Below, one piece after another: positions 37,054 through 50,897 of a stretch of 64,000 bases of DNA. Source of the DNA: Chloroflexota bacterium. Its GTDB lineage: Bacteria > Chloroflexota > Dehalococcoidia > Lucifugimonadales > Lucifugimonadaceae. The notes beneath the pieces are model-generated. The model was not told the origin of the DNA and did no database searches. It worked only from the letters and a program-made list of their open reading frames with translations. Each line of letters opens with the position of its first letter. The first letter of the stretch is position 1. A program made the position numbers and the translations under genes. The DNA is taken from positions 1-64,000 of the forward strand of contig JABMNO010000020.1 of the NCBI GenBank assembly GCA_013204555.1. Direction: 5' to 3'.

Positions 37054-38166
37054 ATGACGGTCGATGATCTGAGTCAGTTCCCCAAAACGCTGGGTGTGAT
37101 CAAGTCCGGAATGGCAGACGGCCTTCACCTTGGAGCGCAGGCCTACGCCGTCATTCACGGCGACGTAGCGATGTCCATCGCTATTGGAGATTCTGAACCC
37201 GGAAAACCTCTGACCGTGAACTCGATTGTCCCGTGGATGTCGAATACCAAACCGCTGGGCGCGATTGCCATCGGGCAGCTTGTTGAAGCGGAGGAGTTGG
37301 ACTGGGATCTGCCAGTAGTGGAGGTGATCCCGGAGTTTGAGGCTAACGGCAAGTCTGCGATAACTATCAAGCATATCCTCACTCACACTGCGGGTCTGAA
37401 CGGCGCGCTTGAAACACGCCCCGGCGAAGCCAAACAGTCTTATGAAGAGTCGGTTGCTACGGTCTGTCGCCGCCAACTGGCAGATGACTGGGTGATTGGT
37501 GAGTCAGCTGCATACGATCCCTATTCAAGCTGGTACATCGTGTCGGAGATCGTGCAGCGAACCGCTGAACAAGATTATGCGGACTACGTCCAGCACGAGA
37601 TATTTGAGCGGCTGGGCATCGAGACGAGTTGGCTCAAGATGACCGATGCCGAATATGAGACGAACGCAGATAACGTGGTCGCCATACCCTCCCCATCTGG
37701 CACACAGGCCAGCGCAGAAAGACTTCGCCACACCGCCACTCAGACCGTGCCGCACGGTGGCGCCAGGGGACCAATCAGCGAACTGGGACGCGTCTACCAG
37801 TCGCTCCTCAACGCTCACATGTGGGCGAAGGGTGATCTGATTTCTGGCGGAACAATCAGGCACATGGCCTCTCGACACCGCGAGGGACGCCAGGATCTCA
37901 CGATGGGATTCATGATGGACTGGGGACTTGGCTTCACCCTGGACTCAAAGCGGTATGGCCTCCCGCATCCGTATGGATTTGGCCGGCATGCGTCAGATGC
38001 TTCGTTTGGACACGGTGGAATGCAGTCATCGGGCGCATTCGCCGATCCTGACAACGACATAGTCGTTGCGTACTACTTCAACGGCATGCCCGGAGAAGCG
38101 GCGCATCACAAACGGTCGCAATCGATCTGCGCGGCGATATATGAAGATCTGGGTGTGGCGGGTTAA
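37054..38166 (+). CDS. Beta-lactamase-family serine hydrolase (class C / EstB-like)
   Basis: 370 residues, ATG at 37054, 9 nt after the enolase-superfamily gene, so probably cotranscribed. The nucleophile motif S-x-x-K is Ser63-NT-Lys66 (WMSNTKPLGA); the second motif is Tyr157-SS (YDPYSSWYIVSEI), and HGGMQSSGAFADPD near the C-terminus is the HGG-type third motif. IKHILTHTAGL is typical. No signal peptide, so a cytosolic esterase or amidase is more likely than a penicillin-binding protein. The actual substrate is unknown, but the operon suggests an ester or lactone linked to the dehydratase pathway. Confidence 0.88.
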   Translation: MTVDDLSQFPKTLGVIKSGMADGLHLGAQAYAVIHGDVAMSIAIGDSEPGKPLTVNSIVPWMSNTKPLGAIAIGQLVEAEELDWDLPVVEVIPEFEANGKSAITIKHILTHTAGLNGALETRPGEAKQSYEESVATVCRRQLADDWVIGESAAYDPYSSWYIVSEIVQRTAEQDYADYVQHEIFERLGIETSWLKMTDAEYETNADNVVAIPSPSGTQASAERLRHTATQTVPHGGARGPISELGRVYQSLLNAHMWAKGDLISGGTIRHMASRHREGRQDLTMGFMMDWGLGFTLDSKRYGLPHPYGFGRHASDASFGHGGMQSSGAFADPDNDIVVAYYFNGMPGEAAHHKRSQSICAAIYEDLGVAG

Positions 38167-38339
38167 GTCCCCCCTGTTCAATGTCGTCATAAGCGCATGT
38201 GTAGTGCGTGATCGGGCTGCTGTCACAACGCCTTTTACTAATCGAATTGTGAACGTGCTGCCAATAGCCTGAGAAGACGAGGGTTAGAGAGCTTCTTCAG
38301 GGGGCACGCGTAGGGATGGGAATCCCCCCAGGGCACTTC

Positions 38340-40085
38340 ATGAGTGACGTTGCGAGCGTTTTCAGTTCGCGCAAGCAAGCCTATTTGCATGGGTCGTTGT
38401 TTGTCGCGTCTCTTGCGGTCTACTTTGCTGGCCTGTTTTTCATCGCTCCATCGGCGGGCGAAGGTGCAGAAGTTCTGGTGCTATTTCCGGTCGTTATGAG
38501 CGCGTTCATTTGGAATTGGAAGGGCGGACTGGGTGCATCTTTCGTTCTTGTTCCGCTGAACATTTTGCTAATTGAAACTCTGGCGGAGAATGCTTCCTCC
38601 GCAGGGTTTGCGGAACTTCCGCGCCACCTACTCATCGTTATTGCGGGAGTTGGAGCGGGAATCATTGCACAGTTACGGGAGCAACTTAACCAGACCTCTG
38701 TCCAGAGAAAAGAGGCCCAGCAATCTCTGGAAGCGGAGTATCAGTTGCGTGGCCAGTTGGCCGAAATATCGCGTTCCCTCTCTGAGACTCGCACGCTGGA
38801 TGATCTCGTAGCATCACTCAATCTCTCACTCAATGGAGTTGCGGAGTTCGATCACTTGCTGATGGGCATCAGGAAGAGCACAGTTGACGATCTGAAGATT
38901 TCTCACTCCATCGGAAAGCATTCTGCAGACTTACCGCTTGATACCAAATTGCCACGGATAAGTTGTGATGTGTCGATTATTTCCAGCGCCGTTGGTGACC
39001 TCAATCCCGAAGACTTCCAGGAGGTATCTCTGCTTTCGGCTGAATTCCAGCGGAGCGGCCTTCAATCCTGGGTCATCACCCCGCTGCACTCACGTCACCG
39101 ACAAGTTGGCCTCCTCATTATCGCGAGTGAAAACCCCGAGGTCTATGAATCGCGGATCGCCCAGGTTCTGAATGGCATAGGAGCTCAGATTGCGCCGGTC
39201 CTGGACAACGCGATCACAATTGAAATCGAACGAGTCCTTTTCCACCGTATGGAGACACAGAATTGGGACTTGCTACAGGCAAAGGCCGAATTGCAAGCGA
39301 CGGCGAATGAGCTCCAGGCCAAGAATGAAGCGCTTGAGGAGGCCAGCGAGGCCAGAACAGCGTTTCTCTCGATGATCTCGCACGAACTACGCACCCCTCT
39401 GACGATCATGAACGGCTTCGCTGAATACCTGACCATAAATTCGGAAAAAAACTTGACCGACGCCCAGTTGCAGTACGTAGGTGTGATGCAGAAGAACGGC
39501 ATGCAACTGAGCCGACTCGTAGATGATCTATTAGATGTCGCTCGCTTGGAAAGCGGCCGTTTCGAACTCGAAATTGGTGAAGTTAACGCCATCGCTCATG
39601 CTAGGGAAGTCCTTCGAGGCTTCAAGACGATCGCATCAGCGAAGCAGCAGACCCTCAACATCAATATCCCTGACGAAGTGGCATGGGTCTCAGCGGACCG
39701 TGCAAGGCTGACACAGGTGATTACCAACCTGCTGTCAAACGCCTCAAAATATTCTGCCGAGGGAACGGACATCGACCTCACAGTGTCCGCTGATGATGAA
39801 AAATTCACGTGCTCTGTGCGCGATCACGGCATTGGTATGTCAGACGATGCCCTCAACAACATTTTTCATCAGTTCTATCGCGCGCCAGAGCTGAAATCAC
39901 AAAACATACCGGGCACTGGACTGGGACTGGTCATCGCTCGATCGATCATTGATCAACACGGTGGAGAGATCAGCGTAGAGAGCACGCCAGACGAGGGCTC
40001 CGAGTTCACGTTCTGGCTACCGCTCTCAACCGCTGAACCGTGGGCCAACTCCGCCTCTGAACCCGCAACGCACGAAGCCGCTTAG
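38340..40085 (+). CDS. Sensor histidine kinase with N-terminal membrane domain and GAF
   Basis: 581 residues from ATG at 38340, chosen because AGGG lies about 7 nt upstream; ATG 38316 in the same frame is an alternative. Three to four hydrophobic helices (about 12-110) form a small DUF4118-like membrane sensor, followed by coiled coil, a GAF-like domain (about 145-290), a second coiled coil, the dimerisation/phosphoacceptor domain with His348 (FLSMISHELRTPLT), and the HATPase domain (NLLSNASKYS N box, DHGIGM G1, GTGLGL G2). Membrane-bound kinase that should phosphorylate the response regulator encoded 19 nt downstream. The signal is unknown. Confidence 0.93.
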   Translation: MSDVASVFSSRKQAYLHGSLFVASLAVYFAGLFFIAPSAGEGAEVLVLFPVVMSAFIWNWKGGLGASFVLVPLNILLIETLAENASSAGFAELPRHLLIVIAGVGAGIIAQLREQLNQTSVQRKEAQQSLEAEYQLRGQLAEISRSLSETRTLDDLVASLNLSLNGVAEFDHLLMGIRKSTVDDLKISHSIGKHSADLPLDTKLPRISCDVSIISSAVGDLNPEDFQEVSLLSAEFQRSGLQSWVITPLHSRHRQVGLLIIASENPEVYESRIAQVLNGIGAQIAPVLDNAITIEIERVLFHRMETQNWDLLQAKAELQATANELQAKNEALEEASEARTAFLSMISHELRTPLTIMNGFAEYLTINSEKNLTDAQLQYVGVMQKNGMQLSRLVDDLLDVARLESGRFELEIGEVNAIAHAREVLRGFKTIASAKQQTLNINIPDEVAWVSADRARLTQVITNLLSNASKYSAEGTDIDLTVSADDEKFTCSVRDHGIGMSDDALNNIFHQFYRAPELKSQNIPGTGLGLVIARSIIDQHGGEISVESTPDEGSEFTFWLPLSTAEPWANSASEPATHEAA

Positions 40086-40104
40086 TCCAAGGAGAATTTC
40101 TTAG

Positions 40105-40674
40105 ATGGCAAGGATATTAGTAGTAGAAGACAATCCGGAGATGCGCATGATGATGATGGCGCTTCTGGGCACGATGGGCCATGAGATCGTAGAGGCGGTT
40201 GATGGCAGTAACGTCCTCCGGTGGGCGCTAGAGGAAGAGCCAGATGTTGTAATGCTGGATGTAATGATGCCTAACGTTGATGGCTGGGAGGCGCTAACCG
40301 AGTTACAGGCCGATCACCGCACGTCGGGTATCCCCGTAATCATGGTCACAGCCAGAAAGTCTGCTGAGGACATGGAGAAGGCTGAAGAGCTTGGTGCTTC
40401 TGACTACGTAGCGAAGCCGTGGTCACCGGGAGAGCTTGAAACGCGCGTCAATTGGGCGCTCCGAAAGAAGGCTGTTCCTCAGCTAAGTGGTGAGTTTGGC
40501 CCGCCGAATGGTTACTTCGAGTGCGGTTGCCCACGTCCATATGATCAGACCGATGAGGACCACGTGGCGCCCGAGGCCTGCTTCGGTTATCAGATTGTCA
40601 GCGACAGCGACAGCGATGTCGATATCGATAGCGATGAGGAATACAGCGAGACGTTGGACGAAGTAGCCAGCTAG
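40105..40674 (+). CDS. Response regulator: receiver domain with Cys motif and acidic tail
   Basis: 189 residues, ATG at 40105, AAGGAG about 10 nt upstream, in operon with the kinase. The receiver domain (1-118) is complete: Asp9, phosphoacceptor Asp52 (MLDVMMPN), Thr82 and Lys104 (YVAKPW). There is no DNA-binding output domain. Instead residues about 130-160 contain FECGCPRP and EACFGY (possible metal-binding Cys), and the tail is strongly acidic and repetitive (DSDSDVDIDSDEE). The tail has near-perfect GAC/AGC/GAT codon repeats. How it signals is unclear; protein-protein output is likely. Its stop overlaps the hemL stop by 4 bp. Confidence 0.9.
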   Translation: MARILVVEDNPEMRMMMMALLGTMGHEIVEAVDGSNVLRWALEEEPDVVMLDVMMPNVDGWEALTELQADHRTSGIPVIMVTARKSAEDMEKAEELGASDYVAKPWSPGELETRVNWALRKKAVPQLSGEFGPPNGYFECGCPRPYDQTDEDHVAPEACFGYQIVSDSDSDVDIDSDEEYSETLDEVAS

Positions 40675-41954
40675 ACGCTCTTCAGCGCCTCCGCTGCCCC
40701 ATCGATAGTCGCCTGAATGTCTGACTCGGTATGGGCGGTGGAGATGAACCACGCCTCGTAGTCAGACGGTGCAATATAGATCCCATTCGCCAGAAGGCCG
40801 TGGAACCATCGGCCAAAGGCATCATGGTCTCCGGCAGACGCATCAGCCATGTCTTTGACCGGGCTACCTGTAAAAAATGCGGTCAGCAACGATCCGACGC
40901 GGTTGATCGTCACGGGAACTTCCGCGTCGTTGAAGACACGACGCAGTCCGGCCTGCAACAGAGCGCCCAGACGCTCCAGTTCATCGTATACGCCGGGCTC
41001 TCTTAGCCGCTCCAGCGTTGCCACTCCAGCAGCCATCGCCAGAGGATTTCCTGAGAGCGTGCCTGCCTGGTACATCGGTCCAAGCGGTGCAACGGTTTGC
41101 ATGATGTCCCTGCGGCCGCCGTACGCGCCTACCGGCAATCCTCCGCCAACGATCTTCCCCAGGCAGGTAAGGTCAGGCGTGACGCCGTAAATGCCCTGCG
41201 CACCGTCCAGACCAACCCTGAATCCTGAAATAACTTCGTCGAATATCAGCAGCGCACCATCCTGCGCTGTCACCTGGCGTAGTGCCCCCAGATACCCCGG
41301 CTCAGGCAACACAACTCCCATGTTCCCGGCAATCGGCTCGACGATGACCGCTGCGATCTCGCCAGCGTGCGCCGCGAACGCCTTTTCGAGCGCCTCACTA
41401 TCGTTGTACGGCAGAACTATCGTGTCTTGAGCCAGCCCAGGGTGGATTCCGGCACTGGTCGGGATGCCCGTCGAAGCCAGTCCCGAGCCAGCTTTCACTA
41501 GCAGTGCGTCACCATGACCGTGGTATCCGCCGTCGAACTTCACGATTTTTGAACGGCCGGTGAATGCCCGAGCAAGCCGCAGAGCGCTCATAGTTGCTTC
41601 GGTGCCCGAGTTTACGAATCGAACGACTTCGATTGATGGCACTGAATCGATCACAAGTTCTGCCAGCCGCACTTCGCTCTCGGTGGGAGCGCCGTATGAG
41701 GTGCCCTTTTCAGCGGCTCGGGTAACAGCGGCTACAACATCCGGGTGGGCATGGCCAAGGATCATTGGCCCCCAGGAGCAGACGTAGTCAATGAACTCAT
41801 TCCCGTCAGCATCCCATATTCGGGAGCCAGCGGCCCGACTAATAAAAAGAGGATTGCCACCCACGCTGCCCCAGGACCTTGCGGGGCTGTTCACCCCACC
41901 CGGAATAAGTTCCTTCGCCCTCTGAAACAGCTCCTGAGAGTTGGCGGTGTTCAA
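40671..41954 (-). CDS. hemL: Glutamate-1-semialdehyde 2,1-aminomutase
   Basis: 427 residues, ATG at 41954. PLP-binding Lys267 lies in CLGKIVGGGLPVGAYGG; NSGTEATMSALRLAR, FDGGYHGHGDALLVKAGSG and LLIFDEVISGFRVG are the family blocks. It converts glutamate-1-semialdehyde to 5-aminolevulinate, the second step of the C5 pathway of tetrapyrrole synthesis. hemA is upstream on the same strand, 120 bp away, so both steps from glutamyl-tRNA to ALA are encoded together. hemB, hemC and hemD are not between them or elsewhere in the window. Confidence 0.97.
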   Translation of the reverse strand: MNTANSQELFQRAKELIPGGVNSPARSWGSVGGNPLFISRAAGSRIWDADGNEFIDYVCSWGPMILGHAHPDVVAAVTRAAEKGTSYGAPTESEVRLAELVIDSVPSIEVVRFVNSGTEATMSALRLARAFTGRSKIVKFDGGYHGHGDALLVKAGSGLASTGIPTSAGIHPGLAQDTIVLPYNDSEALEKAFAAHAGEIAAVIVEPIAGNMGVVLPEPGYLGALRQVTAQDGALLIFDEVISGFRVGLDGAQGIYGVTPDLTCLGKIVGGGLPVGAYGGRRDIMQTVAPLGPMYQAGTLSGNPLAMAAGVATLERLREPGVYDELERLGALLQAGLRRVFNDAEVPVTINRVGSLLTAFFTGSPVKDMADASAGDHDAFGRWFHGLLANGIYIAPSDYEAWFISTAHTESDIQATIDGAAEALKSV

Positions 41955-42074
41955 CTACTGGTCTCCTGATCTCGCCCGTGTGGATGTGGTCCTATTATGG
42001 CGCGGAAAAATAGCGCGCCAATGAGGATACGTGGAGGAATGACTGGATGCCAGTTAGAAACGACAGGAATCGTT

Positions 42075-43346
42075 CTAGTGAGCTTCTGAGTCCTCTGGCA
42101 AATCAAAGGCTCTGGCAACCGCTGATGATGATTCAAGATCATCAGTCTCGCGCAGGTATGCGATGGGGTCGGCCAGAAGCTTTTTGACTATGGCGCGAGA
42201 CATCGCGTCAATCACCGCACGGTCGGCGTCAGTCAGGTTTGGCAAGCGTTTCAGCGCTCGGGCCATTTCCGCTTCCCGCATGGAATCTGCTTGCTCGCCC
42301 AGAGCCTTGATGAGTGGTTCAGAGGCGGCACCCACCAGCAACTCTTTGAAGTGCTGGAGCTCGTCTTCAACAATCGTCTCGGCATCATCTGCTGCGTTTC
42401 GACGCTCATTACGGTGTACTTCCGCAATCTCCGTCAGGTCGCCTAGCCCAAACACTGTGACACCGCTGATCTCGCGGACACCTGCCTCCACATCAGCAGG
42501 CATCGCCAGATCAAGGAAGAATAAGCCTCGTCCATCCCGGGCTGACATCGCGTCGCGCACGATCTCCGTGGAGATGATGCTCGTCTCTGCTGCGGTGCAC
42601 GTCACGATCGCATCGACGGTTTTCAGCGTGCTCTGAATATCTTCAAAGTCGACATAGTTGCTGCCCAGTTCTGCCGCAGCTTCCATTGCTCGATCACTCC
42701 TGCGGGAGGTCACGATAATGTCGCCAACTCCGTTTCTGCGGAGGGCGCGGGCAGCTTGCATACCGGTTTCGCCAGCTCCAACCACGAGGACCGAATGGTC
42801 CTCCAGGGAGCCGAGTGAACGGGTGAGCAGGTCCACACCAATTGAGCTAACAGATACCCGCGCACGCCCAATGTCTGTTGAACTGCGGACTTTGCGTGAT
42901 GTCCTGATGGCGTGGTGGAACAGGCGGGATAGGTGTGGAGAGATTGATTTTGCTTCGCCAGCCGCCCTCAAAGCGTACGAGACCTGACCGACGATCTCCG
43001 GCTCGCCTAGTACCAGCGCGTCCAGGCCGGAGGTTACCCGGAACAGATGCCTGATGGCCTCATCGTCAGAGAGCGAGAAGACATACGGAGAAAGTGGAGC
43101 AGCGCCTGGGTCTAGTCGCTGATCAATTATCTCCAGAAATTCCAATAATTGCCGCTCTCCCGCTTCTTTGTCCGGGTTGTAGGAGTAGATCTCCGTCCTG
43201 TTGCATGTGGAGAGAATAGCGATATCACCAGCATGCAAAGTGCCCTGCTGAATGAGATCAGGCAGAGATCGACGATTAATTGCCAATCTTTGTAGGCGCT
43301 CTATCGGCGCCGAGTTATGACTTACACCTGCAACCAGGAAGTGCAA
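42075..43346 (-). CDS. hemA: Glutamyl-tRNA reductase
   Basis: 423 residues, ATG at 43346. Catalytic Cys48 sits in LSTCNRTEIYSY; GVSHNSAPIE at the N-terminus, VLGEPEIVGQV, VLVVGAGETGMQAARALRRNGV (NADPH Rossmann motif) and TSRRSDRAMEAA are as in GluTR. The C-terminal dimerisation helices end near LLADPIAYLRE. It reduces the glutamyl group of Glu-tRNA(Glu) to glutamate-1-semialdehyde, the committed step of heme synthesis. In operon order it precedes hemL. Upstream is a 433-bp gene-free stretch. Confidence 0.97.
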   Translation of the reverse strand: MHFLVAGVSHNSAPIERLQRLAINRRSLPDLIQQGTLHAGDIAILSTCNRTEIYSYNPDKEAGERQLLEFLEIIDQRLDPGAAPLSPYVFSLSDDEAIRHLFRVTSGLDALVLGEPEIVGQVSYALRAAGEAKSISPHLSRLFHHAIRTSRKVRSSTDIGRARVSVSSIGVDLLTRSLGSLEDHSVLVVGAGETGMQAARALRRNGVGDIIVTSRRSDRAMEAAAELGSNYVDFEDIQSTLKTVDAIVTCTAAETSIISTEIVRDAMSARDGRGLFFLDLAMPADVEAGVREISGVTVFGLGDLTEIAEVHRNERRNAADDAETIVEDELQHFKELLVGAASEPLIKALGEQADSMREAEMARALKRLPNLTDADRAVIDAMSRAIVKKLLADPIAYLRETDDLESSSAVARAFDLPEDSEAH

Positions 43347-43779
43347 TATTTTCTCCTGTGGGACAACCGTCTAAACATAGCACGATGTGATTATTCTCAC
43401 AAAGCTTAATTTCGTGTGGGGCTTGTCCATGAGAATTTCGTGATGACGGACTCGGCACCAGTACCCAGGCAACTAAGCGTGGGAGAGCCCGGCATGTTGT
43501 GAACCGTCCCCTACACATCGGGTCTTTTGAGGGCTGAGATAGGAAGGTCTTCATGTTGCCGTTGTTAAAGGCTCAATGTTGGTGCTCCGCATCCAGCTTC
43601 AAAATCGTAGGGGTGCCAAACGCCCTGGCCATGCTCATAACTGGTACACAGGCCGTTGACATCTCGGTTCTGTTGGATGGAATACAAAGCAGCGTGATAC
43701 GCCCGAACGCTGTGCTAGCATCGACATCTCTAACTACGGATAATGAAGGCGTATCGCCTTAGCAAATCGGAATCCGCGA
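43347..43779. other. Gene-free stretch between hemA and the rhodanese gene
   Basis: 433 bp between divergent genes. Open frames here (for example 43553-43762) have no coding character or Shine-Dalgarno site. I see no RNA gene, riboswitch fold or clear promoter by eye; it must hold the hemA and rhodanese promoters. Confidence 0.35.
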
Positions 43780-44625
43780 ATGAGCGAATCTAGTACTCCC
43801 ATTGAAGATCGCGGGTACGCTCATCCTGAGTACCTCGCATCCACCGAATGGCTTGCAAGCCACATAGATGACTCAGATGTACGCGTGGTCGACTGCAACT
43901 TCCCGGGCGAATTTGAAGACGGACATATCCCGGGGGCGGCCCAACCGGAAAACAACTGGTACAAAGGATCTTCCGCCAGTACCCTAATCGCTCCGCCTGA
44001 TGAATTTGAGCGGATGATGTCAGTACTTGGCATCTCGAACGATTCCACCGTTGTGGCCTACGATTCCGATAGCAATCATCTTGCTCCCAGACTTTTCTGG
44101 GCATTGCGCTACTACGGACACGCCAACGTTAAAGTCCTGGACGGCGGATATCCGGCGTGGCTGGCCGAGAATCGGACCGTCGAGACAGGTGCTGCCAGTG
44201 TGGAAGCCGGTTCGTTCAAAGCATCCACACATGCGGAAGTAATCGCCCTGCGAGAGGACATACTCGCTGATATTGGAGCGACGGGCACGCAGTTCTGGGA
44301 CGTCCGAACAGATGAAGAGTGGACAGGCGAAAACGCTCGAGGGACAGCTCGTGGTGGGCGAATTCCCGGAGCAACTCACCTGGAATGGAAAACCTTAATC
44401 ACGGGAGGAGACGTACCAGTCTTCAGGTCGAGTGACGAACTCATGTCGATCCTCACAAGCGTGGGAGTCACGCTGGACAAGAATATTGTCCCCTACTGAC
44501 AGGGGGGCATCCGTGCGGCGCACGGGTTCTTTGTTCTGAATTTGCTTGGCTTCCCAAACGTGAGGTTATACGACGGCTCATGGGCAGAGTGGGGTAACGA
44601 TTTGTCGTGCCCCGTAGAGCGGTAG
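43780..44625 (+). CDS. Rhodanese-type sulfurtransferase with in-frame TGA (selenocysteine candidate) at the catalytic Cys
   Basis: 281 residues if TGA at 44497-44499 (codon 240) is read through; 239 if it is a stop. Two rhodanese domains: an N-terminal non-catalytic domain (VVDCNFPGEFEDGHIPGAAQ, VAYDSDSNHLAPRLFWALRYYGHANVKVLDGGYPAW) and a catalytic domain (QFWDVRTDEEW, GRIPGATHLEW). The latter should end in the active-site loop C-x-G-G-[IV]-R. Here the frame reads NIVPY-TGA-QGGIRAAHGFFVLNLLGF, then PNVRLYDGSWAEWGNDL and a TAG at 44623. The TGA replaces exactly the persulfide-forming Cys of thiosulfate/3-mercaptopyruvate sulfurtransferases (SseA-like: YCGGGIRA...VYDGSWSEWGN). A hairpin follows the TGA at SECIS distance. 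Two thioredoxin-fold lipoproteins follow. Alternatives: nonsense mutation or sequencing error. The readthrough identity of the protein is near certain; selenocysteine is strong inference. Confidence 0.85.
44500..44530 (+). promoter_or_regulatory. Candidate bacterial SECIS hairpin after UGA
   Basis: Stem CCGTG (44511-44515) / CACGG (44521-44525) closes a 5-nt loop CGGCG; T-G and A-T pairs extend the stem below, with further G-C/G-T pairs beyond one mismatch. The loop starts 17 nt after the TGA and has G in its first two positions. Bacterial SECIS elements are described as hairpins whose apical loop lies about 16-37 nt downstream of UGA with a G among the first two loop bases; this one fits. 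Confidence 0.6.
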
Positions 44626-44651
44626 TCGTACTCACCGACAATTAAATAGGC

Positions 44652-44681
44652 GAATAAGCGCGGTCTCGACCTCGCTTATTC
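44652..44681. terminator. Long hairpin between the rhodanese and TlpA-like genes
   Basis: GAATAAGCG and CGCTTATTC form a perfect 9-bp stem; inside, GGTC/GACC pair around TC after one mismatch. The hairpin follows the rhodanese stop (TAG 44625) by 26 bp. No long T-tract follows, so it is a weak terminator candidate; a regulator-binding palindrome ahead of the next gene is an alternative. Confidence 0.45.
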
Positions 44682-44729
44682 AACACATACTTGTACCACT
44701 AGACGTGGACTCAACTAAGCCGGATTACT

Positions 44730-45956
44730 ATGCCCAAACTCAACACCTCTTTGCGTCCGATTCTGATCGTCATTTTTGGTGTCGTCCTATTGCTGGCGAT
44801 CGCCTGCGGCTCTGACAGTTCCAGCGCTGAACCCACGAGTCCTGTCGACTTCGTGGCGCCGACTGTCAACGTGCCAGAGGATCTTCCTCCCGCCAGACCT
44901 ACGTCGACTCCTGAACTGGCTGCCGACGGCTTGATCATCAACGCTGGCGGACCAGAGCTCACCAATAACCAGAAGTGGTTCAACTCAGAGCCAACGTCTA
45001 TCGGCACACTGAACAATCAGGGACAGGTGGTGCTGATCGACTTCTGGACCTACACCTGTATCAACTGCATTCGCACGCTTCCCTTCTTGCTGGAGTGGGA
45101 CGAGAAATATGGAGGTCGTGGTCTGACGATTCTTGGCGTTCATGCACCTGAGTTCGAGTTCGAGAAGGTGGCGGATAACGTTCAGGCGGCTATCGATCGG
45201 TATGGAATTCAGTACCCCGTTGTCCAGGACAACGAGATGGGCACATGGGATGCCTTTCAGAACCGCTTCTGGCCGGGTAAATATCTTTTGGACACCAGCG
45301 GCAAAGTGATCTACTCCCACTTTGGCGAGGGCGATTACGTTGACACAGAGCGAGAGATCAGGCGGGCCCTTGAGGCGGCAGGCCACGATATCTCAGGCAT
45401 ACCTATCGGTACTGAAGAGGGTGCCGCTCGTGACCCACAGGCGGCCGGGCAAACCCGCGAGCTTTACGGCGGCTGGGGCCGAAACTACTCCAATCAGGGC
45501 CTGTATGCAGGACAGCCTGAGTACTACGACGAGGCTGATACGGAATACCTGTATGAGGACAACATCCCGCATCGCGATGGGCAATGGTACGTACAGGGTG
45601 CCTGGCTGAATACTCGTGAAGCGATCATCCATGCCCGCGAAACGACCGACTATGAGGACTATCTGGCCTTCAAATTTCAAGGCCGATCTGTGAATGTAGT
45701 CATAGATCCCGAGGGGGCGTCCGAGCCGTTCAAAGTCTTAATAGAGCTTGAAGGCCGCCCGGTCAAAATGGAGGACGCAGGCGAAGATATTGAGTATGAC
45801 GCGGACGGAAAAAGCTACATCACCGTGGACGCCAGCAAAGAGTACAGAGTGATTGAGCTGGAGAAGTGGGGTGAGCGCGAGATAAAGATATTTGCTAACA
45901 GCCCATTTTTCGGAATGTCCGCCGTCACATTCGGCAGCAATCTGGTCGGTGCATAG
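44730..45956 (+). CDS. TlpA/DipZ-like thioredoxin lipoprotein
   Basis: 408 residues, ATG at 44730. Lipoprotein signal with lipobox LLLAIAC (Cys near 26), a Ser/Pro/Thr linker, then a thioredoxin domain (about 75-220) with the active site WTYTCINCIRTLP (CINC) and AAIDRYGIQYPVVQDNE as in DipZ/CcdA-linked TlpA-like proteins. The C-terminal 160 residues (GWGRNYSNQGLYAGQPEYY..., YLAFKFQGRSVNVVIDPEG) correspond to the beta-sandwich module found at the end of DipZ proteins. It sits outside the membrane and should carry out thiol-disulfide exchange; no CcdA membrane partner is in the window. The next gene begins directly after its stop. Confidence 0.9.
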   Translation: MPKLNTSLRPILIVIFGVVLLLAIACGSDSSSAEPTSPVDFVAPTVNVPEDLPPARPTSTPELAADGLIINAGGPELTNNQKWFNSEPTSIGTLNNQGQVVLIDFWTYTCINCIRTLPFLLEWDEKYGGRGLTILGVHAPEFEFEKVADNVQAAIDRYGIQYPVVQDNEMGTWDAFQNRFWPGKYLLDTSGKVIYSHFGEGDYVDTEREIRRALEAAGHDISGIPIGTEEGAARDPQAAGQTRELYGGWGRNYSNQGLYAGQPEYYDEADTEYLYEDNIPHRDGQWYVQGAWLNTREAIIHARETTDYEDYLAFKFQGRSVNVVIDPEGASEPFKVLIELEGRPVKMEDAGEDIEYDADGKSYITVDASKEYRVIELEKWGEREIKIFANSPFFGMSAVTFGSNLVGA

Positions 45957-46958
45957 ATGGTGAATATCAACATGAGAATTGCCGTCTTACTAACGGCGGT
46001 GTCGATCTTCGCTATCGCTTGCGGTTCCGACAGCGAAGGTACGGCGCCGGTGGTCGTAGCGACTGAAGCCTCTGCGGATGTCGAGCCTGCTGAGGAGCGT
46101 GAAGAACCACGGACCCTGCAGGAGAGCCTCGAACAATATCCAAGGCATAATGATGATGAATCCGGGTTCGGCGTAATCCTTGGAACGCCAGATCTTGGCG
46201 TTGGGCAGAATCGCGTCGCCTTTGTGATGACGGATAACGACTTCGGCATAGTGAAGACCCCATTTGCCCGCGTTGAGACATTCTTCGTCCCCAAAAGTGG
46301 AGAAACTGAAGGCCCCGTGGAATCTGTCACGGCCCAGTTCTTCGACTTCCCCCTCAAGGTACGTGGTCTATACGTTTCTAATCTGAACCTTGATCGCGAG
46401 GGCACGTGGGAGATCAACGTCACGGTCCCCGACACGAGCGGCGAAAGAGTAGGGATCCGATTTCCTGTGGAGGTAGCAGCAAAGCCAAAGTCTGTTGCGC
46501 TTGGTGCAAAAGTGCCGCCAACTTCCAACGGTACCTTGAGCGATGTTGCCTCGGTATTTGAACTCACGACCGCAAGCCAGCCGGACAACTCTCTTTACGA
46601 TGCCAAGATCGATGATCTAGTGGCTGCGGGAACCCCGTTCGTGGTGACATTTGCCAGCCCCGCGTTCTGCACGAACGCTCTTTGCGGTCCACAGGTAGAG
46701 GTCCTCAGCGAAGTTGGCGCAGAGTTCGGAGACCTTGCAGAGTACGTTCACATTGACCTGTACGAGAATCCCGATGAGATCAAAGGCGACCTCAGCCGTG
46801 GCCAACGCACTTCAATCCTGAAGGACTGGGGAGTCCACACTGACGAGTGGACGTTCATCGTCGATGGGAAGGGCGAAGTCATCGCCAAATTCGAGGCGTT
46901 CGTACCGAGGGAAGAGCTTTCAGCGGCCGTTCAGAAGTACCTTGGCGCTGGCGTCTGA
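45957..46958 (+). CDS. Thioredoxin-fold lipoprotein
   Basis: 333 residues; its ATG (45957) directly follows the TAG of the TlpA-like gene, so the two are cotranslated. Lipobox FAIAC (Cys near 22). The middle (about 60-205) is beta-rich with no motif I know. The C-terminal domain (about 215-330) is thioredoxin-like: PFVVTFASPAFCTNALCGPQVEVLSEV with two Cys spaced C-x4-C in place of CxxC, then YVHIDLYENP, WGVHTDEWTFIVDGKGEVIAKFEAFV. This Cys spacing is found in some SCO1/thioredoxin-like lipoproteins. Likely partner of the TlpA-like protein in extracytoplasmic redox or metal delivery; function inferred. Confidence 0.8.
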   Translation: MVNINMRIAVLLTAVSIFAIACGSDSEGTAPVVVATEASADVEPAEEREEPRTLQESLEQYPRHNDDESGFGVILGTPDLGVGQNRVAFVMTDNDFGIVKTPFARVETFFVPKSGETEGPVESVTAQFFDFPLKVRGLYVSNLNLDREGTWEINVTVPDTSGERVGIRFPVEVAAKPKSVALGAKVPPTSNGTLSDVASVFELTTASQPDNSLYDAKIDDLVAAGTPFVVTFASPAFCTNALCGPQVEVLSEVGAEFGDLAEYVHIDLYENPDEIKGDLSRGQRTSILKDWGVHTDEWTFIVDGKGEVIAKFEAFVPREELSAAVQKYLGAGV

Positions 46959-46968
46959 TCGAATCGTT

Positions 46969-47934
46969 CTAACTCTTCCGGGACTGGTCGGTGTTCGCGC
47001 CTGGCAGAGAATACGTTGGTGGCAAAAAGATAATTGGATTGCGGCTATGCCTGACAAGCCGGAACACGCTTGGCCCTAGGACGCGTCGCATGATTCCGAA
47101 CCGGCGCCTAGCTGTTGTCACGACGATGTGATCTGGTAATTCGTTAGCGGCGCGCAATACGGCGTCGAAAGCCGACTCTGGACGGCGCAACACTGTGACT
47201 TCAAGTCCTGCGTCCCGAAGCCGATCAGCGCGCTCACCCAGATATTCAAACGGCTCGTCGGCATAGAGGATGGCGTTTGCGTCGCCAGCAAGCGGCAATG
47301 ACCGGGCCGCCTTGGCCCCCACGATTGTCACGTCTGCTCCGATTCCGATCGCCAGTTTCCCTGCGTACCCCAGCGCCGCGTCTGATCTTGTGGAGCCGTT
47401 GATTGGCACCACCACTCGCTGTGGGAGGCCCCTTTTTTCGGAATCATCAGGATTCATGTTGGGCGGAATAAACAACATTGGCGTGTTGGTGTTCGTCCAT
47501 ACGGTCTCCGTAATGCTCTCTCGGAACCAGCGAAGGTACTGCGGTCTTGGTCTGGAGCCAATTGCGATCAGTCCGTATTCGCCCTGTCCAGAATGAGCAA
47601 GCACCATCTCTGACACCCGGCCCGCGGCAACGACTACACGAGAACGCGCCTTGTCTTGAACAAGATGGCGGGCGACTTCCGTTAGGTAGTCGGTCGCGAC
47701 CGTTCGTGTTCTATCGTGCAGAGCGTCGGGATAGTTGATCTCACCGGGGCGCGCGGGATTGCTGTTCCTGGGCAGTAGAACGTGGAGAAAGGTCAATTCC
47801 GACCCGAGCCGCTCTGCGAGCGGAACGACGAGGTTCAGAATCTCTTCCGAACGCGCGGAACCATCCAGAGGAACGATGATCCTCTCAAGAATGTGATGTC
47901 CCGTTTCCGGTAACTTGTCGGTCTGTAAGGCCAA
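46969..47934 (-). CDS. Tandem universal stress protein (two UspA domains)
   Basis: 321 residues, first codon TTG at 47934; no ATG lies close to the domain start (ILERIIVPLDGSARSEE). Domain 1 (about 14-150) has the Usp pattern VPLDGSARSEEIL...ELTFLHVL...GEYGLIAIGSRP; domain 2 (about 165-310) has QRVVVPINGSTRSDAAL...DHIVVTTARRRFGIMRRVLGPSVFRLVRHSRNPIIFLPP. In domain 2 the GSVAxxVLRxAxxPVLVV-type ATP-binding region is recognisable (GPSVFRLVRHSRNPIIFL). Cytosolic, stress-related nucleotide-binding protein. Convergent with the thioredoxin lipoprotein gene, separated by 10 bp. Confidence 0.88.
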   Translation of the reverse strand: MALQTDKLPETGHHILERIIVPLDGSARSEEILNLVVPLAERLGSELTFLHVLLPRNSNPARPGEINYPDALHDRTRTVATDYLTEVARHLVQDKARSRVVVAAGRVSEMVLAHSGQGEYGLIAIGSRPRPQYLRWFRESITETVWTNTNTPMLFIPPNMNPDDSEKRGLPQRVVVPINGSTRSDAALGYAGKLAIGIGADVTIVGAKAARSLPLAGDANAILYADEPFEYLGERADRLRDAGLEVTVLRRPESAFDAVLRAANELPDHIVVTTARRRFGIMRRVLGPSVFRLVRHSRNPIIFLPPTYSLPGANTDQSRKS

Positions 47935-48116
47935 CGTCTCTGTATTCGCTTGCTGCTCAACCTGTGGTTGAACATTCTAGTCACCCGGCCCGATCTATTC
48001 ATTCGAGGACGTCACCGTAGTTGACCCAAAACAAGTGGGACGTTGATCTGCTACGGCGCACCATAATGCCGGTGATAGAGTTGGCGACCACACCCACTCC
48101 GGAGGTCCTGATAGCC

Positions 48117-49781
48117 ATGCCAATGATGAGCGGAAAAATCGCGCTAATGGAGAGTCTTCGCGCTGAGGGGATCCGATATATATTCGGCAACCCCGGCACA
48201 AGCGAAGCTCCAATCATGAGCGCTCTCGAAGGGTACCCGGACCTGGAATATGTGCTCGCCGTCCAGGAAGGTGTCGCCATGGGTATGGCTGACGGTTACG
48301 CCCGACGCACCGGTGAGCCAGCGTTCATCAATTTACACATACATACCGGGTTGGCCAACGGAATCAGTCTGCTGACGGATTCGTTTTCAGCAGGGGTTCC
48401 ACTGGTGCTCACGGCGGGAAACCAGGACGCGAGAAAGCTATCCGAAGGCCGACCGGATCTCCTGCGAATGGTGGAAGCCAACACAAAGTGGAGCGCCGAA
48501 GTTACACACGCAGGCCAGATGGCCAGCGTGATGAGACGCGCATTTACCGAAGCGCGAACTGCCCCAACGGGCCCTGTGTTTGTTGGATTTGCGGCCAACG
48601 CGTTGGAAGAGATCGCTGAACAAGAGATATTTCCTTCAACCACACCCCGTCAGGCAAACTTGCCCGCACCAGGTGTGGTCTCGGAAATCGCAGACATGCT
48701 TACCGATTCCGCGCGCCCGCTGATGCTTGTTGGCGATCGCGTCAGCCAGACCGGTGCGACGACCGCAGCTGTCGCCGTGGCTGAACAGATTGGCGCACGT
48801 GTCTACTCCACCGGATACACGCAGGTGGTGTTCCCAACGTCTCATCCGCAGTACATGGGCATGATGAGCATGCGCTCCCCGGCTATCCGTGAAGACGTTA
48901 AGCGCGCAGATGTCGTTCTTGCTGTTGGCACGCGGCCGTTCGCCGATTTCTTTCACATGGATGGCGGTCCCCTTGATGAGGGCACCAGGTTCATCCACAT
49001 CGACTCAAACGCAGATGAACTGGGTCGGTCGGTGCGAACTGACCTGGCCGTGCTGGCAAGTCCGCTGGGGGCGCTGTTGGAACTATCCCGAGAGCTTGAT
49101 GCCAATGCTCCTAGTTCGTTCACGGATGCTGCAAAGGCCCGTTCAGCGAGCATCGGCGCGTTGACGAAAGCAGCTCGCGATTCGTTCATCGAAGACATGC
49201 GGAATGACAACGGTTCAATTCCCATGAGCCCGGCCCGAATGATGTACGAACTTTCCCGCGCCTGGCCTGAAAACGGCATCATGGTGGACGACTCCATTTC
49301 GTCGCGCGGCGCTCTGTACTCAGCGTTCACATTTGATCAGCCGGGAGACCTTGAAGGCGAATATGGGTCTGCCATCGGATGGGGGATGGGTGCCGCAATC
49401 GGCGTAAAACTCGGATCTCCACACCGCCCCGTCATCGCCGTTATGGGAGATGGCACGGCGATGATGACGGTGCAGGCGCTCTGGACGGCAGCGTCTCGTG
49501 ATATTCCAGTCGTGTTCGTGATCTGCAACAACAGCATGTACCGCATCTTGCGGGTCAACATGAACGTCTACCTGGATCAGGTGACGGAGCAGTCCGACAA
49601 GCCGAGTGAGTACCTGGGAACCGGGTTCGATCCGTCATTCAACTTCGCGGCCATTGCCAATGCTTTTGGCGTGCAATCGAAGCGCATCGAAGATCCGGCA
49701 GACATCGTTCTCGCGCTCCAAACAGCAGTCGCGGCCAATGCCCCATACGTTCTGGACATCGCTATTGATGGAGCGCTGTAG
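48117..49781 (+). CDS. ThDP-dependent enzyme (benzoylformate decarboxylase/acetolactate synthase-like)
   Basis: About 554 residues from ATG 48117, with GGAGGT about 10 nt upstream; the frame is open from TTG 48021 but that extension is not family-like. Three ThDP domains: the Pyr domain with GIRYIFGNPGTSEAPIMSAL and the activating Glu of LAVQEGVAMGMADGYAR; a central domain (RPLMLVGDRVSQTGATTAAV); and the PP domain with GDG...NN motif VMGDGTAMMTVQALW and FVICNNSMYRIL. The order and lengths match benzoylformate decarboxylase and related 2-oxoacid decarboxylases. It decarboxylates or carboligates a 2-oxo acid; the substrate is unknown. The kinase gene follows after 6 nt. Confidence 0.9.
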   Translation: MPMMSGKIALMESLRAEGIRYIFGNPGTSEAPIMSALEGYPDLEYVLAVQEGVAMGMADGYARRTGEPAFINLHIHTGLANGISLLTDSFSAGVPLVLTAGNQDARKLSEGRPDLLRMVEANTKWSAEVTHAGQMASVMRRAFTEARTAPTGPVFVGFAANALEEIAEQEIFPSTTPRQANLPAPGVVSEIADMLTDSARPLMLVGDRVSQTGATTAAVAVAEQIGARVYSTGYTQVVFPTSHPQYMGMMSMRSPAIREDVKRADVVLAVGTRPFADFFHMDGGPLDEGTRFIHIDSNADELGRSVRTDLAVLASPLGALLELSRELDANAPSSFTDAAKARSASIGALTKAARDSFIEDMRNDNGSIPMSPARMMYELSRAWPENGIMVDDSISSRGALYSAFTFDQPGDLEGEYGSAIGWGMGAAIGVKLGSPHRPVIAVMGDGTAMMTVQALWTAASRDIPVVFVICNNSMYRILRVNMNVYLDQVTEQSDKPSEYLGTGFDPSFNFAAIANAFGVQSKRIEDPADIVLALQTAVAANAPYVLDIAIDGAL

Positions 49782-49787
49782 CCCCGC

Positions 49788-50897
49788 ATGATCCATACCC
49801 CTTCCATCCCAATGAGCCTGGGTGAGGTGACCGCGGAGTGGCTCACTGAAGCCCTCAGATCTGGTGGATCACCGGCAAATACGCGGGTCACATCTGTCGA
49901 TGTGCAGCCCTTTGCCGTTGGCCGAAGTCGTACCGGCGAGATCGCCCTTTTGACCCCCGTCTATGAAACTGGCGATGCCGGGTTGCCCAACGAAATTATC
50001 GCCAAGATTGTCTCCCAGAGTGATGCGAACCGGCAGAACGCGGTGGAGATGAGCGCGTTCCCTCGGGAGGTCCAGTTCTATCGTTCCATGGCGTCAGAAG
50101 TGCCCTTCGCGATTCCTCGAATGATCTATGGCGATTTTGATCCAGCGACGCGAGATGGCATCCTGCTTCTAAACCGGGTTGACGGCGCGACCAGGGACGA
50201 ACTGACGCCAGAACGCCAAACTGAGATCGAAGCCGACGTGACTGAACTGCTGACCAATCTTGCCCGGATGCACGCGCGCTGGTGGGGCGGTGACTCGTTG
50301 CCTGAAACCGGCTTCATGCTGAACGTCCGTGATGAGCACTTCGGTCATGTCCTCAATGGCCACGAGGCTTCACTCGCAAATCTGAAGCCGCTACTTGAGA
50401 AGTCGTTCTCTGTAGATGTGATCAGAAATCTTGAACGATTGACCGGTTACCGGGAAAAGTTTTTGCCCGTGGCGCGAGACATGCCACGAACGTTTTGCCA
50501 CGGCGATTTCCATGCCCAGAATATCCTCTGGAATCGGGAATCGAAGTCGCCGCGCGCCTGGGTTCTGGATTGGCAGATGGTCACTCTCGGGCCGGGAGTG
50601 CTTGATCTCTCAACTTACCTTGCCATCGCGATTCAGAAGCAACGGACATCTGAGCTTCTGCTACCCGCAATCAAGTCCTACCACCGCGAACTCACGGCAA
50701 ACGGAGTGCAGGGATACGGCTTAACCCAACTTATCGAAGACTACCGCCACGCGGCGCTCGCCACGCTTGGGGTGATGGTGTTCGCGCTGGGATCACTGGA
50801 ATTCATTGGCCCCGCGTTTGATGCCATCGTTTCCGAGGTCATCGGCAATGCTGTGGCCGGAGTGGAAGCCGTCAACGGTTTCGCTCTGCTTAGCTGA
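49788..50897 (+). CDS. EcKL/APH-like small-molecule kinase
   Basis: 369 residues, ATG at 49788, 6 nt after the ThDP enzyme stop. The kinase core has the catalytic Brenner motif FCHGDFHAQNILW (HGDFHxxN) and the metal motif VLDWQMVTLGPGVLDLSTYLA (Asp in LDWQ), as in choline/ethanolamine, aminoglycoside and ecdysteroid-kinase-like (DUF1679) proteins. GILLLNRVDGATRDEL is the hinge region. In SAR202-like and actinobacterial genomes such kinases often accompany steroid or lipid catabolism genes, which is only a suggestion here. The C-terminus overlaps the convergent serine hydrolase stop by 8 bp. Confidence 0.82.
   Translation: MIHTPSIPMSLGEVTAEWLTEALRSGGSPANTRVTSVDVQPFAVGRSRTGEIALLTPVYETGDAGLPNEIIAKIVSQSDANRQNAVEMSAFPREVQFYRSMASEVPFAIPRMIYGDFDPATRDGILLLNRVDGATRDELTPERQTEIEADVTELLTNLARMHARWWGGDSLPETGFMLNVRDEHFGHVLNGHEASLANLKPLLEKSFSVDVIRNLERLTGYREKFLPVARDMPRTFCHGDFHAQNILWNRESKSPRAWVLDWQMVTLGPGVLDLSTYLAIAIQKQRTSELLLPAIKSYHRELTANGVQGYGLTQLIEDYRHAALATLGVMVFALGSLEFIGPAFDAIVSEVIGNAVAGVEAVNGFALLS

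Follow-up and report, generated by a model that had tools for sequence, protein, structure and literature searches.

A predicted selenocysteine form of a two-domain rhodanese in Chloroflexota, with a conserved hairpin after its in-frame TGA and cysteine forms among its relatives

A selenocysteine (Sec) form of the rhodanese-related sulfurtransferases of COG2897 (SseA) has been known as a printed prediction since 2005, when three sequences followed by a predicted SECIS were described from the Sargasso Sea as 'Rhodanese-related sulfurtransferase' (PMC1088965), and because of that prediction the gene described here belongs to a known kind. The GOS survey counted Sec forms of cd01449 (8 sequences) and COG2897 (1 sequence) (PMC2398784), and reviews from 2022 (PMC9312934) and 2026 (PMC13188914) list the COG2897 Sec form as predicted, the later one as 'form 4, UxxG'. 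As far as the available excerpts of these papers go, the published COG2897 Sec forms are computational predictions made from few sequences, with the host lineage unnamed. In the available excerpts of the open-licence PMC literature we found no paper tying the COG2897 Sec form to Chloroflexota, no experimental test of it, and no description of a Sec-substituted EanB; searches of open-licence PMC for SAR202 selenoproteins, Chloroflexota rhodanese selenoproteins, or a Sec-mutant rhodanese returned nothing. The accessible portions of neighboring literature offer some context. A 2006 survey reports 3 Chloroflexi selenoproteins, their family unnamed in the excerpt, together with 15 Sec-to-Cys events in four families, some of which have left remnant SECIS-like structures (PMC1794560). 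The 2026 review describes Sec-to-Cys replacement as rare and mainly confined to FdhA and SelD (PMC13188914), and SelA together with SelB is reported from most sponge-symbiont bins in a paper whose accessible text does not mention rhodanese (PMC5649159).

The window, by which we mean the whole 64,000-nucleotide stretch of a Chloroflexota genome that was analysed, contains on its plus strand a rhodanese-type sulfurtransferase gene of 281 codons with one in-frame TGA (43780..44625). The frame opens with ATG at 43780, runs for 239 codons to the TGA at 44497-44499, and continues for 41 codons (codons 241-281, 44500..44622) to a TAG at 44623-44625; if the TGA is read as Sec, this becomes a single open frame of 281 residues whose sole interruption is codon 240. 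Pfam Rhodanese (PF00581) matches the product at 123.2 bits against a curated cut-off of 22.2, in two stretches that correspond to two domains, and residue 240, the predicted Sec, aligns with the active-site-loop Cys of 1uar (YCRIAER), 8k55 (YCRIGER), and 1urh (SCGSGVT). The Thermus rhodanese 1uar is both the top sequence match among solved structures and the best PDB match (TM 0.89, with 36% of residues identical when aligned by Foldseek) of an AlphaFold model that was built from 29 aligned sequences with Cys substituted for Sec and has a mean pLDDT of 95. Assignments to narrower families fall short: the NCBIfam mercaptopyruvate sulfurtransferase (MST) equivalog PRK11493 scores 159.4 bits, below its cut-off of 250, the MST loop CG(S/T)G given in the available part of PMC3276061 is absent from the protein, and the model for the ExtH selenite/tellurite reduction rhodanese (NF040901) scores 75.6 bits, below its cut-off of 200. 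The other match to the query in the same genome is 36% identical and is a Cys form with the loop CQTAVR. When the window was scanned mechanically for frames reading through TGA, 18 candidates emerged including this gene, which is the only one of them with an extension past the TGA that is convincing by eye.

Our preferred reading, which we consider well supported, is that the gene encodes a two-domain rhodanese in which TGA 240 is read as Sec by way of a SECIS-type hairpin, with selenium as the carrier in sulfur transfer. UGA 240 would be read by the cell's own Sec machinery with the aid of the downstream hairpin, and Sec240 would then sit in the six-residue loop U-Q-G-G-I-R. There it would accept a sulfane sulfur from a donor, forming a selenenyl-sulfide (Se-S) intermediate that would hand the sulfur on to a thiol acceptor in an otherwise ordinary rhodanese cycle. 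We infer that one-centre transfer through such an Se-S intermediate is the likeliest mechanism because no second Cys is conserved and the rhodanese residues are retained. In the family alignment no column other than 240 is near-invariant for Cys/Sec, a candidate resolving Cys occurs at position 39 in just 43 of 84 TGA forms and at position 277 in 28 of 84, and R176, R187, and R245 are near-invariant in TGA and Cys forms alike.

If the protein is a true selenoprotein, Sec240 could instead serve in redox chemistry, reducing peroxides or disulfides, or could deliver selenium to SelD rather than transfer sulfur, a reading that we think unlikely. The available excerpts of a 2022 review (PMC9312934) state that selenoproteins of known function nearly all act in antioxidant defence and that most predicted selenoproteins are homologs of thiol oxidoreductases, and a Cys rhodanese is described, in the accessible part of a review, as carrying selenium in the form of perselenide in vitro. 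The genomic neighborhood also lends a redox role some plausibility. Downstream of the rhodanese on the plus strand is a gene for a ResA/TlpA-like thioredoxin-fold protein (44730..45956; Pfam Thioredoxin_10, AhpC-TSA, and Redoxin above their cut-offs), whose product by eye has an N-terminus like that of a lipoprotein and carries a CINC motif, and the corresponding ORF cluster occupies the downstream flank in at least 41 of 123 loci. This thioredoxin-fold protein is a possible candidate for a redox partner of the rhodanese, but by eye it looks membrane-anchored whereas the rhodanese has no obvious signal peptide, and a redox role fits poorly with the unconserved resolving Cys and the conserved rhodanese residues described above. 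On the other side of the rhodanese is a divergent glutamyl-tRNA reductase (HemA) gene on the minus strand (42075..43346; Pfam GlutR_N and others), and the upstream minus-strand ORF cluster to which it belongs was found in at least 43 of 123 loci; these neighbor counts are lower bounds because the flanks were about 2 kb or shorter. The thioredoxin-fold gene is followed by an ORF at 45957-46958 for a lipoprotein-like product of 333 residues, for which neither Pfam nor NCBIfam gives a match at 1e-3 and which an ORF cluster present in 19 of 123 loci resembles by eye.

The relatives of this gene bear on whether the TGA is simply a stop, with the locus a pseudogene or the source of a 239-residue truncated product. 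Of 250 genomes from the window's order, 222 contain a match to the rhodanese, and we read 110 loci from this order: that of the window, 29 others, and 80 fetched by hand, the last comprising 25 without a stop and a spread of TGA loci, so that 26 of the 27 stop-free cases among the matches listed were covered. Codon 240 is TGA in 84 of these loci, TGC in 17, and TGT in 9, with no other stop in any of the 110, although the share of Cys is over-represented because Cys cases were deliberately sought. This TGA-or-Cys pattern is the one that the original prediction had said would support it if present in related genomes. At least 325 of 400 genomes in a sample of the phylum also have a match, and, among the matches listed, the 8 TGA cases that lie outside the order but within the class or phylum all place the TGA at codon 240 and have a hairpin of the same type after it, one of these loci (L220) ending with its contig at residue 253; the 5 Cys rows collected alongside them are all TGC. 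Among the best 80 loci from genome_contigs, 74 have Cys at this position, 4 another residue, and 2 TGA, the last being Dehalococcoidia records that are apparently repeats of genomes already counted. Viral contigs yielded 2 pattern matches and no confirmed relatives at the search sensitivity used. The Cys loci are unevenly distributed, 18 of the 26 belonging to the genera g5, g6, g11, and g65, which have small AT-rich genomes and a locus GC of 0.27-0.38; the genus g2 also has Cys at a GC of 0.57-0.59, and selA is kept in 5 of the 6 g2 genomes read.

A genuine stop would agree with the 26 of 120 database hits, among the matches listed, that are 238-240 residues long and apparently end at the TGA. 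However, the same codon is found in 92 loci from 24 families with the frame continuing beyond it, truncation would remove the catalytic residue, and the sequence after the TGA is under purifying selection in relatives, with a pN/pS of 0 to 0.21 for codons 251-274 in 15 of 15 hand-chosen pairs, similar to the 0 to 0.30 of the 60 codons 5' of the TGA in the same pairs. We therefore regard a true stop as very improbable. The original prediction had placed the TGA at the codon of the catalytic Cys, had read the 41 codons beyond it as the C-terminus of a sulfurtransferase, and had expected annotation to truncate the protein at 239 residues; the structural alignments, the open and selected downstream frame, and the presence of the window's own database entry among the short ones are in accord with it on each of these points. 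In practical terms, the family seems to have many database entries that are cut just 5' of the active-site codon.

The host assembly, a draft of 3.73 Mb in 82 contigs that is about 93% complete with 3.8% contamination, contains all four of the genes that the original prediction had named as the Sec machinery to look for. A tRNA-Sec gene (selC) with anticodon TCA scores 68.8 bits against a gathering score of 47, two weaker matches to the tRNA-Sec model above that score being tRNA-Ser according to ARAGORN, and selA, selB, and selD exceed their cut-offs in the same genome at 541, 320, and 380 bits, respectively, with Pfam confirming the winged-helix domains of SelB and the SelA domain. The selD gene has an in-frame TGA of its own near the start (L021:1531-1533, on contig C36 of the host genome), after which a hairpin with a loop of three bases is predicted, and an ORF near the tRNA-Sec gene (L001:2329-3033) resembles by eye the C-terminus of a molybdopterin oxidoreductase of the formate dehydrogenase-like type. 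Across the order, a selA match above cut-off was found in 77 of 83 genomes with the TGA form and in 16 of 26 with the Cys form (Fisher p 3.8e-4), and the six TGA genomes that have no such match are 56-82% complete; another genome of this order (G144) has two selA matches above cut-off, on contigs C15 and C16. With a dedicated tRNA-Sec in the genome, Cys rather than Trp at codon 240 in relatives, TGA terminating two ORFs of the window, and the same codon common to many separate assemblies, it is scarcely credible that the TGA encodes some other amino acid through an altered genetic code, as the stops of 10 window ORFs (TAG 7, TGA 2, TAA 1) might hint, or that it is a sequencing or assembly error. 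The preference for TAG among the 10 ORFs inspected in 37054-50897 of the window may itself be unusual.

A short way 3' of the TGA, on the plus strand, folding and the comparison of loci predict a bacterial-type SECIS hairpin at 44510..44526, with a 7-bp stem (5' arm 44510-44516, 3' arm 44520-44526) and the triloop GGC at 44517-44519. The stem begins with a T44510-G44526 wobble and continues as CCGTGC/GCACGG, and the small apical loop with a guanosine agrees with what the available part of PMC1088965 gives as a common feature of bacterial SECIS elements. A lone sequence is insufficient to settle such a structure, because the fold beats dinucleotide shuffles only moderately, with z of -1.9 and -2.0 in two windows and 8 of 200 and 7 of 200 shuffles folding as well as the native hairpin. 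Rfam likewise gave nothing above threshold for 44450-44650, its two matches being sub-threshold (the better one ClpQY_promoter, 15.4 bits versus 42). What settles the hairpin is the comparison of 84 TGA with 26 Cys loci, which needed a codon-usage-matched control because 18 of the Cys loci are AT-rich. The TGA forms have on average 6.67 of 7 stem pairs compared with 4.41 in codon-usage-matched synonymous shuffles, whereas the Cys forms have 3.19 in both native and shuffled sequences; 6 or 7 pairs are found in 81 of 84 TGA forms and in none of the 26 Cys forms, whose maximum is 5. The 8 Cys loci at a GC of 0.57-0.63 have 2 to 5 stem pairs, and the single locus with 5 (L043) is nested among TGA relatives, so its stem is perhaps a remnant of the hairpin. 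Taken one sequence at a time, 62 of 84 TGA forms surpass 95% of their synonymous shuffles in stem pairs, and just 36 of 84 do so in fold energy.

The 92 TGA loci (84 from the order and 8 others) share the consensus TGACAGGgnGGcATCCGTGCGgCGCACGGa, and the triloop in the 84 is GGC in 71, GTC in 12, and TGC in 1. The inner six pairs are intact in 86 of the 92, the exceptions being L039, L052, L139, and L168 with five and L193 and L201 (family f36) with three. In the last two the central pairs are lost and an alternative stable hairpin is predicted farther downstream, perhaps a shifted SECIS. Compensatory changes occur in the stem among the 92 loci: pair 15-29, mostly C-G, is G-C in L186, L194, L203, L216, and L221 (families f2, f47, and f108) and a compensatory A-T in L208, and pair 19-25 is a compensatory T-A in L197 and L198, from two families, so that residues 246 and 248 change jointly in these two from Ala/His to Ser/Asn. 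In 15 hand-chosen pairs, codons 241-249, which hold the hairpin, have no amino-acid change at all, and in 14 of the 15 their synonymous change is also below that of the upstream codons. The conserved, covarying stem and its GGC or GTC loop in relatives bear out the original prediction of a G-loop hairpin at SECIS distance. The hairpin is very likely an in-gene SECIS element in its predicted function, and the Sec machinery, the conservation of the codon, and a paired hairpin specific to TGA forms together make it very likely, at the level of sequence, that TGA 240 is decoded as selenocysteine.

The distribution of Sec and Cys over the family suggests how the two forms may have arisen. In a tree of 125 rows, with columns 239-251 excluded, the 121-row ingroup (91 TGA and 30 Cys) requires 6 Sec/Cys changes, at least 5 of them forced by well-supported branches, and constraining the 30 Cys rows to a single group lowers the log-likelihood by 279 units (p-AU 9e-53), in a test whose group was defined after inspection of the first tree and from which 13 distant or diverging rows were removed beforehand. 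The trees come from a quick search; many of their forks are weak and some of their branches long, and the first tree took in 14 of the 80 genome_contigs loci. Because the hairpin is nearly one sequence throughout, a single origin of Sec followed by repeated replacement is likelier than repeated gain, and Sec was probably ancestral in this Chloroflexota clade, with several replacements by Cys accompanied by loss of the hairpin. The 16 Cys-form genomes with selA imply that Sec is dispensable here, and Cys forms inside Sec-decoding genomes show that the switch is possible without loss of the machinery. The broader proposal, that this is an ancestral natural selenium-based sulfurtransferase in which a near-fixed 15-base SECIS core constrains the protein near its active site and which has switched repeatedly to Cys, seems to us reasonably probable.

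Selenoenzymes have mostly been explained by redox chemistry. If Sec does occupy the sulfur-carrying residue of this enzyme, selenium would be catalysing the transfer of its neighbor element, and the family would offer a set of natural Sec and Cys forms with which to ask what a sulfur-moving enzyme gains from employing selenium. Matched Sec and Cys orthologs within one lineage would permit a direct kinetic comparison. In this lineage Sec also seems to have given way to Cys repeatedly, a direction of change that reviews, in their accessible parts, call uncommon in bacteria.

Other rhodanese selenoproteins (the COG0607 forms, NF041203, and TsoB) likewise have Sec in a rhodanese domain according to the available excerpts of reviews, but their motifs UxxS, CxU, and UxxxxU differ from that of the window protein, which at 23 bits stays below the NF041203 cut-off of 115; the COG0607 'form 2' is also UxxG (PMC13188914, in part). 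The gene is closest to the COG2897 Sec forms of the Sargasso Sea and GOS surveys, sharing with them the COG and domain family, a predicted Sec where homologs have Cys, a TGA followed by a predicted SECIS, a U-x-x-G motif (here U-Q-G-G), and widespread Cys homologs, and with AACY01016424, MQG53192.1, and MCY3690685.1 of the published COG2897 Sec form it agrees in family and motif by description. What appears to be new, relative to the excerpts of the literature available to us, is the distribution of this form across Chloroflexota, the near-fixed state of its SECIS, and the 5 or more Sec/Cys switches on the tree. With the Cys rhodaneses and mercaptopyruvate sulfurtransferases of Thermus (1uar), Azotobacter (1e0c), and E. 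coli (SseA, 1urh), it has the fold and the position of the active site in common; where 1uar and 1urh carry Cys in the loops CRIAER and CGSGVT, the window gene would carry a predicted Sec in the loop UQGGIR.
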